From an uncultured Schlesneria sp. (GTDB lineage Bacteria; Planctomycetota; Planctomycetia; Planctomycetales; Planctomycetaceae): a stretch of 64,000 bases of DNA. Below the pieces are notes generated by a model. The model worked only from the letters and a program-made list of their open reading frames with translations, ran no database searches and was not told the DNA's origin. This document shows positions 2,160-35,208 of this stretch, in pieces (the stretch's first letter is position 1; each line of letters opens with the position of its first letter). The stretch spans positions 1-64,000 of the forward strand of contig CAIVEI010000146.1 in assembly GCA_903904835.1 (NCBI GenBank), read 5' to 3'. Made by a program: the position numbers and the translations under genes.

Positions 2160-3275
2160 TTACGTCAGGGTGAATTCTGGCAGACGAATGACTTCGCCAC
2201 CTTTGAGCGCTGATTCGTGAGCGAGGATACCAACACAGGTCCAGTTTGCCGACAACGTGGCGTTCGGCCATGGGTCACGGTTTTCGATCAGGGCACTGAC
2301 CATTTCGTGGACCAGGTGCGGATGTGAGCCGCCATGACCACCACCTTGGATGAAGGAGAGGTGATCGGCATCCTGGATCGTCTGGGTAAATTTTCGGATC
2401 GGTTCGGGGAGCCGATGGGCAAAGTCAGGAACTTCGACTTTTGAGGCAATTTCGTGTTCTGGCTTCTTCGCTGTGTGGATCACGTGTGGTTCCCCTTCGA
2501 CCAGAGTCCATTCAAAGCTTTTTTTCGTGCCATAAACGTCAAAGCTTTCGCGATACTGACGGGCGACGTCGTAGAGGAATCGCCAGATATGAGCTGAAAC
2601 ATCCGAGTCTTTAATCTTGATGTGGCAGGACTCGACGGCGAATTTGTTACCGGACTTCTGAGCGATGTCATCGCGAACGGTCCCGGAGCCGAAGCAACTG
2701 ACGTATTCGGCCCGGCCGTTGACCAGGCCGAGGCACGGGCTGACGACGTGCGTCGCGTAGTGCATCGGAATCATTTTTTCCCAGTAGGCAGGCCAGCCAT
2801 CCATATCTTGCGGGTGCGAAGCGGCCAGGTGCTGAATCTTGCCGAGTTCACCTTTTTCATAAAGGTCTTTGATGAACAGGAACTCGCGCGAATAGACGAC
2901 GGTTTCGGCCATCATGTATTTCAGGCCGGTCTGCTTGACCAGTTCGCAGATCTGACGGCATTCCTCGACGGTCGTTGCCATGGGGACCGTACACATGACG
3001 TTCTTGCCCGCTCGAAGAGCCTGCATCGACATGCTGGCGTGGTCGGGAATCGGCGAATTGATATGGACGAAATCGACGTTCGGGTCTTTCAGGACTTCGC
3101 TGTAGTCGGTAAAGCGTTTTTCGATTTTGAACCGGTCACCGATCGTATTGAGATGCTCTTTGTTCCTTTGACAGATGGCATAGACATTGGCGTTGGGGTG
3201 CGCCTGGTAAATTGGAATGAACTCGGCACCGAAACCCAAACCGATCATTGCGACGTTGACTTGTTTGCTTGACAT
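2160..3275 (-). CDS. Gfo/Idh/MocA-family protein without the EKP lysine
   Basis: A protein of 371 residues with an N-terminal Rossmann fold (VAMIGLGFGAEF, about 8-19, a G-x-G-x-x-G dinucleotide site) and the alpha/beta C-terminal domain of the Gfo/Idh/MocA oxidoreductases. These usually oxidise or reduce sugars and cyclitols with NAD(P). The start at 3275 (MSSKQVNV) is preferred because the Rossmann strand begins at residue 6; a start 11 codons upstream is also open. The usual catalytic EKP motif reads TVP (about 96-98), so the lysine is missing and catalysis is uncertain. The neighbours give no substrate clue. Confidence 0.88.
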   Translation of the reverse strand: MSSKQVNVAMIGLGFGAEFIPIYQAHPNANVYAICQRNKEHLNTIGDRFKIEKRFTDYSEVLKDPNVDFVHINSPIPDHASMSMQALRAGKNVMCTVPMATTVEECRQICELVKQTGLKYMMAETVVYSREFLFIKDLYEKGELGKIQHLAASHPQDMDGWPAYWEKMIPMHYATHVVSPCLGLVNGRAEYVSCFGSGTVRDDIAQKSGNKFAVESCHIKIKDSDVSAHIWRFLYDVARQYRESFDVYGTKKSFEWTLVEGEPHVIHTAKKPEHEIASKVEVPDFAHRLPEPIRKFTQTIQDADHLSFIQGGGHGGSHPHLVHEMVSALIENRDPWPNATLSANWTCVGILAHESALKGGEVIRLPEFTLT

Positions 3276-15594: not shown

Positions 15595-15712
15595 CGTTCA
15601 CTTCGTAGCGGCGGTGTCATTGATGATTTACACACAGGCAGTTCAGCATACGCATCGACATCACATCAACGCGCGAGCGATTCATTTCTCAACCCATCAT
15701 CCGACGCGCATC

Positions 15713-15732
15713 AACCGGCTGCGCCGGTTTAA
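15713..15732. terminator. Short hairpin between convergent genes
   Basis: AACCGGC (15713-15719) pairs with GCCGGTT (15723-15729) around TGC, at the 3' end of both the arabinofuranosidase and PQQ genes. Only a few T residues (TTTAATT) follow on the plus strand, so terminator activity is weakly supported. Confidence 0.35.
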
Positions 15733-31669: not shown

Positions 31670-31912
31670 CTATCCTCCACTGACCGGTGGAAAACAGGCG
31701 ACTTCATCGCTTGTTTTTATGGGCGCATCATCTGCCGCATAGTCATTATTCACCGCAACCAGCAGTCGCGAAATCATCGGTTGTAAATCGGGATGCTTTT
31801 CCACAAGCACCCGTTTCAACTGCAAAACAGTCTGCCCGTCCGTCCAGTGAACCTCTGCAACCGGACTTCCAACGACTTCGCGAGCTTTCGCGAAAAGCTT
31901 GACTTGTAACAT
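31670..31912 (-). CDS. moaD: Molybdopterin synthase sulfur carrier subunit
   Basis: A ubiquitin-fold protein of 80 residues (MoaD/ThiS family). The essential C-terminal Gly-Gly is present in FPPVSGG, where adenylation and thiocarboxylation occur before sulfur transfer by MoaE. MLQVKLFAKAREVVG at the start and VNNDYAADDAPI in the middle fit the family. It begins 22 bp after the Hsp70-like gene on the same strand, so those two are probably co-transcribed, although no functional link is known. Confidence 0.92.
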   Translation of the reverse strand: MLQVKLFAKAREVVGSPVAEVHWTDGQTVLQLKRVLVEKHPDLQPMISRLLVAVNNDYAADDAPIKTSDEVACFPPVSGG

Positions 31913-31934
31913 GGCGACCTGATTTCCACCCGGC

Positions 31935-34900
31935 TTAAAGTATTCTTAATCCCTTTGGTAGCGAATCACCTAAGATCAGTGATTCGTCTTCCGTTTCAAG
32001 GTTGGTAACCTGAAAAACCAATTCGCGATAGTGGCTTGCAACGGCAGCTCGTTCCATGGACTTAAGAACATGACTCCGTGTCGATTCATCGATATCCCGG
32101 TAGCGATCACCGGTCTTTCTGGCAAGTTGCATGGCGGCGAATGCGACCAGATGTTCGGTGAAATCGTGTTTCACAAGTCCCATTAACCATCGTGATGCCA
32201 TGTCCGCTGGAACGACCGTATTTAAAGGTCCGTAAACCGGACGACGTGCACCGACTCGACCGAGTGACCAATAGCCGGACGGACGTAACGCCGCGAACTT
32301 GGGCTTTTCCAACATTTCCAGCAACAGATCGCCCAGTTCTCGCTTCATTGCGATCGGAAGAAGCTCGCACGCACCCAGCAGCCGAATCAGTTCTGCGGAT
32401 TCATGCGTATTGCTTCCGAAATCCACACTCTTCCCCTTTGATCCCGGTTGTCGGACGGCTTGTCTGAGCTGGCTGATCAGTGGGGCCGACAACGCTTGTT
32501 GTTGTCCGGCCGTCAGCCCCCCCGCGATCCTTCGCCAAAGGATATACCATTCGGCGCGACAGGCTGTGGTCGCGAATGCCAGATTGGTCTGAAGCAGTTT
32601 CCATGTTTCGTTACACCGCCAGTCATCAACCGCCAGGCCATAGCCGGGCCTTAACGAGTACCCCACCAGATTCAGCCACCGGGCTTCGTGCTGAGCACTC
32701 ATCTTCCGACCCGGCTCACACTCGATCAACACTTCCCACAATTGCCGCAACAGAGACGTTGGCCACTCCTCACGATCAAGCGCCAAAACCTCCACGAGAT
32801 TTTTAACAACAGTCGCCGCCGCCGCCACAGGCGGTTGATGCGCGTCGCGAGACGGGTTGGGTATTGGAATATCTTTCGCGCGTTGTGGGCTTTTAAATTT
32901 TTCGATACCGACTGCTGCTTCAGCAGTCGGTGTCGAAAACGTATTGATGATGACATTTCGTGCTGATTGAATGACATCGTCGTCAAACAATCCCTGGCGT
33001 TCACCTGACGCGTCATGTGCTGACACATCGGTTTGTGTTGCTGATCGTACATCGAACAGGAGTTTCCAGGAACGTTTGCCATCTACCTCGCTGCACCAGA
33101 GGTCGAGCGTGCCGATTTCCGTGAGCTTGGCCTTCAGGATCACGGCCACCGAGGCCGCCTCTTTCGACTTGCCGGTCTTGAGGACCGTTCGGATCGGCGG
33201 CAATGACTTGATCTGTTCGGGATCAATCGGGATCAAGTCACCTGGCCGATCCGTCAATCGGGTACTCGAAACGTACAAAGGAAATTCAATCGGTTGTGAA
33301 ACGAGCAAATGAAACTTATGACGACTCAGATCGATTTCTTGCCCTGGCTCAATCCCAGCAGGAACAAGGCACAATGCCGAATGTCCTGAGACTTCAGAAT
33401 TGGACGGCTGATCGCTTGATGATCCGTCAATCGTCGACGATTCCAGGTCCGCAGCAGAACCTTCAACCCCGATGTAATAAGACCTGGCCAGCCCGGCATT
33501 GATGCGGACCCCAACACCGCGCCGCACCATTCCGTAATACGCAGCTCCTCGTGCCACAGCAAGATCCAGCCGCTCATTATCAAGCACGATCGGCGACCAG
33601 TTCGGATCACTGACGCGGAACCAGCGTTCCAAGGCTCGAATCAATCGATCCCGCAAAACCGGCGAAGCAAACACCCCCCCATTAAACAAAACCGCCGCCG
33701 CCACAGGCGGTTCATGCGCGATGAGAGATGGGTTCAGAATAGGGTGATCGCTTGCGCGTTGCGGCTCTTCTGGAGAGACTGACTTCTTTGGTGGGGTGTT
33801 GGACGTTGCGACTTGCTGGCTTGGTGATGGAACGGAACCCGCGATCAATTCGTCGTTTGCGGCAACGTCACGATGTGCTGACAGGAACGATGCCAGATAT
33901 TTTGTGATCGCTGGATCGGAGGCATACGGAAGACCAAACTCTTGGAATCCTGACTTTGAAGACAAGGGCTTCGTGTCGAGTGGCACATCTGGAAAGAAAC
34001 CATCGGCTAATAATGATTCAACTTCCTCGCGAGTCACCTGGATCTGGATCGAACCGCCGATCAGTTTGGAACCGCTGCCTGGCATGGTCAGTGTCCATTT
34101 TTCGGGGGCGTTTTCCCCCATCAACACTTCCTTCAATTGGCGGCAACTGCGAACTAATACACCCCACTGCCGTGGTTCGAGTTGCCCACCCGGTTTGATC
34201 CGATTTTCCAGGTGATGTGCCAGCGCAAGATCGAGGTTATCGCCGCCGAGGATCAGGTGGTCACCCACGGCAACTCGATGGAATTGGATTTTTCCGTCAG
34301 CACCGCTTCTCACCCGGATCAAGGTAAAGTCTGTTGTTCCTCCACCAACGTCGCATACCAGAATATTCTGACCCGGTGAAACAAGTTGTTCCCAGGTCTG
34401 AGCATGTTTATCGATCCAGGCGTAAAACGCGGCTTGAGGTTCTTCGATCAGCACGACACGATTCAGTCCCGCCTCTTTCGCGGCCTTAATCGTCAGCTCT
34501 CGAGCAACTTCGTCGAACGATGCCGGTAATGTCAGAACGAAGTCCTGATCGGCAAGCGGGTGTTCGGGAAATTGAGCATCCCAGGCGTGACGAAAATGCT
34601 CGAGATAACGGGCGCTAACCCTGACCGGTGAAAGTCGATCAACATCTTCAGCTCCTTGCCAGGGCAAGAGATCTGCTGTCCGATCGACTCCGTTATGGCA
34701 GAGCCACGACTTCGCCGAAGAAATCTGTCTTCCGGGAACGAGCGTACCATGTTCGCGAGCAAAATGTCCGACGGTGTAGTTTCCGGTTGCTGACCACGGT
34801 AGGTGTAGCGATTCGGCGGGAAATTCTCCGCTGGCCGGTTGATAGTGGAACGACGGCAAGGTTTCACGCGCTTCCACCAGACCAGGTGCCACCACCTGGG

Positions 34901-35027
34901 GGACCAGAAAAGTGTGGATGGTGCGTTTTTTTTCGGTCGTGTCTACGAACGCCATCGCGGAGTTCGTCGTCCCGAGATCGAGTCCGACGACATATCGGCT
35001 GGGTTGAGACGGATCTGCTGCGGTCAC
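31935..35027 (-). CDS. Hsp70-like ATPase with long C-terminal extension and inserted repeats
   Basis: A 1030-residue protein. The actin/Hsp70 ATPase fold is clear: VGLDLGTTNSAMAFVD (phosphate 1, about 13-28), LVCDVGGGTTDFTL (phosphate 2, about 222-235), VLFNGGVFASPVLRDRL (adenosine region, about 446-462). The usual DnaK substrate domain is not recognisable. The C-terminal approximately 280 residues resemble the DUF3731-type extension of bacterial Hsp70-like proteins. Residues about 420-445 and 713-738 are near-identical 26-residue insertions matching a DNA repeat. No DnaJ or GrpE gene is adjacent. Chaperone activity and client are unknown. moaD follows 22 bp later. Confidence 0.85.
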   Translation of the reverse strand: MTAADPSQPSRYVVGLDLGTTNSAMAFVDTTEKKRTIHTFLVPQVVAPGLVEARETLPSFHYQPASGEFPAESLHLPWSATGNYTVGHFAREHGTLVPGRQISSAKSWLCHNGVDRTADLLPWQGAEDVDRLSPVRVSARYLEHFRHAWDAQFPEHPLADQDFVLTLPASFDEVARELTIKAAKEAGLNRVVLIEEPQAAFYAWIDKHAQTWEQLVSPGQNILVCDVGGGTTDFTLIRVRSGADGKIQFHRVAVGDHLILGGDNLDLALAHHLENRIKPGGQLEPRQWGVLVRSCRQLKEVLMGENAPEKWTLTMPGSGSKLIGGSIQIQVTREEVESLLADGFFPDVPLDTKPLSSKSGFQEFGLPYASDPAITKYLASFLSAHRDVAANDELIAGSVPSPSQQVATSNTPPKKSVSPEEPQRASDHPILNPSLIAHEPPVAAAVLFNGGVFASPVLRDRLIRALERWFRVSDPNWSPIVLDNERLDLAVARGAAYYGMVRRGVGVRINAGLARSYYIGVEGSAADLESSTIDGSSSDQPSNSEVSGHSALCLVPAGIEPGQEIDLSRHKFHLLVSQPIEFPLYVSSTRLTDRPGDLIPIDPEQIKSLPPIRTVLKTGKSKEAASVAVILKAKLTEIGTLDLWCSEVDGKRSWKLLFDVRSATQTDVSAHDASGERQGLFDDDVIQSARNVIINTFSTPTAEAAVGIEKFKSPQRAKDIPIPNPSRDAHQPPVAAAATVVKNLVEVLALDREEWPTSLLRQLWEVLIECEPGRKMSAQHEARWLNLVGYSLRPGYGLAVDDWRCNETWKLLQTNLAFATTACRAEWYILWRRIAGGLTAGQQQALSAPLISQLRQAVRQPGSKGKSVDFGSNTHESAELIRLLGACELLPIAMKRELGDLLLEMLEKPKFAALRPSGYWSLGRVGARRPVYGPLNTVVPADMASRWLMGLVKHDFTEHLVAFAAMQLARKTGDRYRDIDESTRSHVLKSMERAAVASHYRELVFQVTNLETEDESLILGDSLPKGLRIL
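32814..32891. repeat. Intragenic repeat, copy B, inside the Hsp70-like gene
   Basis: A 78-bp unit 58/78 identical, without gaps, to 33693-33770, with the first 20 bases identical (CGCCGCCGCCACAGGCGGTT). Read in the gene's frame it gives a PQRAxDxPIxNPSxxAHxPPVAAA peptide at residues about 713-738. A CCGCC/GGCGG hairpin is part of it. Confidence 0.85.
32896..32936. repeat. 19-bp hairpin inside the Hsp70-like coding sequence
   Basis: Bases 32896-32914 pair with 32918-32936 around a CTT loop, 19 bp with a single T-G wobble (plus strand). The core is CCGACTGCTG/CAGCAGTCGG. It encodes residues about 697-711 (FSTPTAEAAVGIEKF region), directly next to intragenic repeat copy B, so both may belong to one inserted unit. 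Confidence 0.85.
33693..33770. repeat. Intragenic repeat, copy A, inside the Hsp70-like gene
   Basis: The partner of the unit at 32814-32891, in the same orientation and reading frame. It encodes residues about 420-445, just before the VLFNGGVF strand of the ATPase domain, so it lengthens a loop there and not a core element. It is preceded by a Ser/Pro-rich stretch that also looks like linker. Confidence 0.85.
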
Positions 35028-35208
35028 TGAACGTCTGGCCTTCTGTTTTTATTTGTCGATGAATAATTCGAGTAAATTGTTGTACCACAAGATTCATTCG
35101 CATTCTCTATTATCGCGAGACTCATCTCGCCGCAAAGTCGCCATTTCCACTAAACTGTCGGCTTGTTCGTCAAAGTCGGATGAACACGTTTGCAGCGGCA
35201 GGGAAGTC

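Follow-up and report, generated by a model that had tools for sequence, protein, structure and literature searches.

A short dispersed repeat of Schlesneria occurs in frame in an Hsp70-like gene and in other, unrelated genes

The best-known mobile repeats that lie in frame in genes are those of Rickettsia and the intragenic REPs. MITEs and enterobacterial repeats such as ERIC are short and non-autonomous, with an open frame that is able to fuse to host genes. The Rickettsia palindromic elements (RPEs) were reportedly described by Ogata et al. in 2000 and 2002. As portrayed in a review (PMC10969869), RPEs are dispersed and non-autonomous; they interrupt genes of unrelated, mostly housekeeping function without breaking the frame, and they encode a single conserved peptide. 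The GTAG and CGTC REPs, as characterized in passages of Di Nocera et al. 2013 (PMC3733652), are short and mainly intergenic, with some copies inside ORFs of many bacteria, including those of tRNA synthetases, and with double inserts in one gene; the same passages present the CGTC REPs as having no dedicated transposase. In the open-licence PMC literature, we found no paper on the Schlesneria element presented here.

The window, i.e. the whole 64,000-nt stretch of DNA that was analyzed, belongs to an uncultured Schlesneria (Planctomycetes), one of a group of lake planctomycetes with the repeat. The repeat-bearing genomes are drafts, and three or more of them are MAGs. The features discussed below are as follows.

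31935..35027, minus strand: Hsp70-like gene, 1030 aa (ORF and Pfam), HSP70 (PF00012) in the N-terminal part and DUF3731 'DNA-K related' (PF12531) in the C-terminal part
33697..33761, minus strand: repeat copy 1, in frame, residues ~421-443 (PQRASDHPILNPSLIAHEPPVA), directly ahead of the strand AAVLFNGGVF, 76.6 bits
33698..33712, minus strand: tail hairpin of copy 1, CCGCC-TGT-GGCGG (family consensus CCGGC-TGT-GCCGG)
32821..32885, minus strand: repeat copy 2, also in frame, residues ~713-735 (PQRAKDIPIPNPSRDAHQPPVA), where the DUF3731 part begins, 79.5 bits
32822..32836, minus strand: tail hairpin of copy 2, CCGCC-TGT-GGCGG
15667..15728, plus strand: third copy in the window, outside any long gene; the same place is occupied in G001 and G002

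The Pfam E-values of the 1030-aa protein were 6e-77 for DUF3731 and 4e-20 for HSP70. A preliminary description had placed two units in this gene, on the same strand and in the same frame, and the alignment confirmed it: positions 32816-32888 and 33692-33764 are 78% identical over 73 nt in the best gap-free register, with the first 21 bases identical and a spacing of 876. Both units are thus real, but the earlier register, with a spacing of 879, was off by one GCC triplet, because the end of the unit is a GCC run. The reading frame shared by the two inserts gives PQRASDHPILNPSLIAHEPPVAAA at residues ~421-443 and PQRAKDIPIPNPSRDAHQPPVAAA at ~713-735; the linkers had previously been placed at ~420-445 and ~713-738. 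The 15-base hairpin motif occurs twice in the window, versus 0.11 expected, and the repeat as a whole greatly exceeds what chance would give.

The two units belong to a large family. BLAST with one unit found 48 places in the source genome (G000; 8.18 Mb, 211 contigs), a 32-position unit pattern with ≤3 mismatches found 70 places there and none in the reversed control, and a covariance model built on 36 copies found at least 115 copies at E ≤ 0.01. The 118 distinct copies counted in the G000 loci examined support the earlier view of a DNA repeat family that enters genes in frame. The core of ~48 bp, CAACGCGCGAACGAT-nn-CCTATTCTGAACCCRTCnTnCGACGCGC, reads CAACGCGC...GACGCGC and is followed by a tail; with the usual small hairpin tail, the unit amounts to ~65 bp in all. 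The tail is exchangeable, being mostly a 5-bp hairpin (CCGGCTGTGCCGG) and sometimes A-rich. By a rough motif rule, loose enough to score a few A-rich copies as hairpin-like, the tails of 111 copies were divided into 91 hairpin-like, 12 A-rich, and 8 other. Tandem arrays of copies have periods of ~38, 65, 83, and 99 bp; an array of the repeat core with the 38-bp period was observed at locus L068 (7516-7809). We also observed a second dispersed repeat, GGGGGCTnACGCACCCCGGCTCGCC, directly upstream of 20 of the 111 G000 copies, e.g. at L029 (1980-2024). This second repeat is also translated in frame (RGLTPPGSP) in LpxK, a Cas4-Cas1 fusion, and a regulator of G005.

In three of the 36 aligned tail hairpins, one pair differs on both sides yet still pairs, and one of the three hairpins also changes the neighbouring pair. 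Such compensatory changes were seen only in three gene-borne copies, two in the window (32822-32836 and 33698-33712) and one at L010 (about 3023-3037). The core stems are weak, and the folding was no better than that of shuffles (z 0.04 and 0.53). The only Rfam match in 31900-35100 was sub-threshold and away from the repeats. A structured RNA was rejected given the weak core hairpin and the shuffle-like folding. Short hairpin inserts in yeast mitochondria are skipped by ribosomes, and this precedent, together with the compensatory changes in three of the aligned hairpins, would fit an RNA-level feature, in which the hairpin is skipped or excised and the peptide is never made. We find this very improbable, given the z values above, the eight sense gene copies that are all stop-free and frame-keeping (see below), which skipping would not need, and the insert dN/dS below 1.

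The Schlesneria repeat resembles the RPEs in being dispersed, in lying in frame in unrelated genes, and in having one conserved peptide (frame 0 in 8/8 sense copies). It differs in length (~65 bp vs ~150 bp) and in its core, which is not a long palindrome; no RPE-type palindrome of the whole element with a stable hairpin was found, only the 5-bp tail stem and the weak core stems. Moreover, only 22 of its 118 copies are inside a gene, and the host is an unrelated bacterium, a presumably free-living planctomycete; the comparison with RPEs is by description. Like the GTAG/CGTC REPs, the repeat is mainly intergenic with some copies in ORFs, and we found no dedicated transposase. However, its tail (CATSAA-CCGGCTGTGCCGG) has a 5-bp stem and no GTAG/CGTC tag, whereas the CGTC REP stem is given as 8-9 bp in the relevant part of the REP study (PMC3733652); the Schlesneria unit is also longer, with a conserved non-palindromic core and exchangeable tails. 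In being short and non-autonomous and having an open frame joined to host genes, it is similar to MITEs and ERIC; MITE-type terminal inverted repeats were not seen by eye in the alignment of 36 copies. The Schlesneria family behaves like RPEs and intragenic REPs, yet we assign it to neither, because it has neither the long RPE palindrome nor the REP tag and stem.

Most copies lie between genes. Although proxy genes make up 81% of the bases examined, only 22 of the 118 copies were wholly inside them and 10 partly (binomial 2e-48). Within G000 genes of ≥300 aa, there are eight sense copies, all in frame 0 and none in sense frames 1 or 2; each is stop-free and keeps the downstream frame. The frame 0 peptide, QRAxDxPILNPSxDAHxPxVP, forms a linker of about 20-25 residues. 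The hosts are the Hsp70-like protein (two copies), leucyl-tRNA synthetase (LeuRS), an outer-membrane efflux protein, a DUF1501 protein, LpxK, a FAD-dependent oxidoreductase (DAO), and an SPFH protein, with the DUF1501 and DAO copies near an N-terminus whose start is uncertain. These proteins belong to unrelated Pfam families and have no pathway in common. Three antisense copies were located in long ORFs of two genes (two at L206 and one at L204), and two others at uncertain N-termini (L009 and L217, the latter of 277 aa). Frame 0 is therefore preferred, not exclusive. In the other 102 copies, frame 0 is open in 76 and each of the other five frames in 21-45, and frame 0 represents 76 of the 248 open frames. 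At that rate, the probability of 8/8 sense copies in frame 0 is 8e-5, that of 8/10 with the two antisense genes included is 0.002, and that of 6/8 without the two N-terminal copies is 0.013. Frame 0 also has the highest mean disorder propensity of the six frames, on an approximate scale.

In-frame copies were also found in other proteins of G005. A Cas4-Cas1 fusion, encoded by a 786-aa frame on contig 118 (L074/L165, 2984-5341, minus strand), contains five of them; its alignment with the solved 559-aa fusion 7mi4 runs along its length and breaks exactly at the inserts (chain positions 53-66, 212, and 353-358). On this contig, a regulator judged by eye to be WYL-like (L165, 14819-16114) has one copy. 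Similarly, the alignment of LpxK to its solved homologue 4ehw breaks exactly at the insert (82-99).

When 84,980 species genomes were scanned with the pattern, 36 stretches matched: 35 from three MAGs of uncultured Schlesneria and one from a contig assigned to an actinobacterium. The latter (L082, CAINLV010000037.1), filed under the MAG Kiruna_bin-09407, is syntenic with the G000 locus L179 and is probably a misbinned Schlesneria contig. In 15 Schlesneria genomes, the covariance model (E ≤ 1e-5) counted 101 copies in G000, 129 in G001, 113 in G002, and 112 in G005, one in each of two others, and none in nine. A second model, of the A-tailed form, added traces in G003 (1), G006 (7), G007 (4), and G014 (2); it had matches in 8 of 59 relatives, all Schlesneria, whereas the 44 genomes from other genera had none. 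Overall, the family is dense in four sister species (~100-130 copies each); five near relatives have 1-7 traces, and the six remaining congeners have none. In a protein tree of the Hsp70-like protein, LeuRS, and LpxK, the four repeat-rich species form one clade (bootstrap 100), and together with G003, G004, G006, G007, and G014 a larger one (100), with a weakly supported inner order (43-47). Some insertions are as old as the larger clade, since G000 (L207, 2233-2286) and G007 (L172, 1501-1554) share a copy immediately next to the 3' end of tRNA-Arg(CCG). Many copies are at contig ends, as is usual for repeats in short-read assemblies, which might suggest an assembly or binning artefact. The same inserts with conserved flanks nevertheless recur in four separate assemblies, and they differ between species as diverged orthologues do, making such an artefact extremely improbable.

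As proposed in the preliminary description, we aligned orthologues with and without the inserts. Among 30 Hsp70-like proteins, both segments are present only in the four sister species, and a weak relic of the second one is found in one more congener, G004 (model E 1e-5 / 2e-6; genome-wide 4e-4); the segments are therefore not an ancient domain. In LpxK, the insert is present in 4 of 14 aligned sequences, with two in tandem in G005. LeuRS of the four species has a ~20-30-residue insert immediately ahead of the strand YVLDMFPYPSG, and that of G004 a diverged one; by model, the LeuRS loci are strong in 4 of 14 and weak in G004 (E 0.007; E 0.8 with the first model). The SPFH insert occurs in 4/4 rich species and that of the WYL-like regulator in G002 and G005. 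Outside the clade, the orthologues mostly have no such segments. Orthologues that do not have the element also vary in length at the insertion sites, as would be expected of an ancient variable linker domain that merely resembles a DNA repeat. This explanation is hardly credible in view of the hundreds of copies in four genomes, mostly outside genes in the one examined, the identical sequence type in unrelated proteins, and the non-clade orthologues without the segment, the G004 relics apart; the intergenic copies already contradict it.

The inserts are under relaxed constraint, as their dN/dS (Nei-Gojobori, four species, pairs not independent) is above that of the rest of the gene: 0.56 vs 0.09 in the Hsp70-like gene, 0.43 vs 0.16 in LpxK, and 0.58 vs 0.05 in LeuRS. 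The pS of the inserts (0.28-0.33) was below that of the remaining gene sequence (0.43-0.47), which simple tolerance does not explain. Third positions account for a share of 0.53 of the differences from the consensus in coding copies and of 0.52 in the others, i.e. for the same share (Fisher p 0.88). Within the non-coding copies, the excess of synonymous differences is largest in frame 0 (0.404 vs 0.294 expected), with antisense frame 1 near it (0.382 vs 0.295). The repeat could be retained as a selected module, i.e. QRAxDxPILNPSxDAHxP would act in many proteins as a linker or as a tag for localisation or interaction. The insert dN/dS below 1 (0.43-0.58), the retention of the LeuRS, LpxK, SPFH, and both Hsp70 inserts in 4/4 species, and the frame 0 excess, largest even in non-coding copies though close to antisense frame 1, are compatible with this. 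We nevertheless consider it quite unlikely, because the third-position share is equal, the hosts have no common pathway, and the majority of copies are intergenic. There is a small chance that the open frame of the element is itself kept for protein compatibility, with the element spreading from one essential protein to another and bringing each the same prefabricated disordered linker or tag; insertion would then remodel many proteins of one lineage alike. Earlier, the inserts had been suggested to be tolerated, or selected, as a linker. Tolerance is well supported by the length-variable loops and the dN/dS of 0.43-0.58; selection gains no support from the codon-position test, in which coding and non-coding copies are equal.

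The element is thus very probably a mobile short Schlesneria repeat tolerated in proteins as a linker, a planctomycete counterpart of the RPEs. The family would date from the stem lineage of a single Schlesneria subclade, and its expansion would have taken place in the common ancestor of the four sister species. The copies probably arose by transposition-like insertion, which would occur mostly between genes. Within a gene, the sole commonly viable outcome may be the usually stop-free sense frame, giving a polar, Pro/Asn/Ser/Asp-rich peptide that would be tolerated as a linker in a surface-type, length-variable loop. The peptide is presumably disordered and surface-exposed, and it likely has no dedicated function. 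The long inheritance of the inserts could be due to the rarity of precise in-frame loss. A planctomycete clade has its own, apparently unrelated family of in-frame repeats, found in the catalytic part of LeuRS, in LpxK, and five times in one Cas4-Cas1. Two of the hosts, leucyl-tRNA synthetase and the lipid A enzyme LpxK, are essential. With four sister species that have the inserts and a series of relatives that do not, these genomes provide a natural experiment that can show how proteins come to incorporate selfish DNA and which of their loops accept it.

Nucleotide-level empty sites, which would reveal any target-site duplication of the MITE type, were not found: the 39 placeable sites of other species all have a copy in G000 as well. 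Some of the 39 were counted more than once in overlapping loci; a further 37 sites were unplaceable, and 9 had short flanks. The G000 loci examined had been picked for carrying a copy, and the 39/39 shared sites therefore give no measure of turnover. No mobilising gene was found: copies lie within ~1 kb of 2 of the 15 Y1_Tnp matches in G000, and none of the 15 has copies on both sides, so that RAYT mobilisation was rejected. An integron attC site was considered by its motifs and dropped. A composite transposon was also rejected, since the genes between inverted copy pairs are a DUF1501-like and a sigma-like ORF (both by eye) and Cas4-Cas1, with no transposase. At L181, L193, L194, L195, L205, and L213, the copies have similar flanks with TTTGAA..TTTGAACGCCC, some with an inverted partner across the copy, and are apparently nested in a third repeat.
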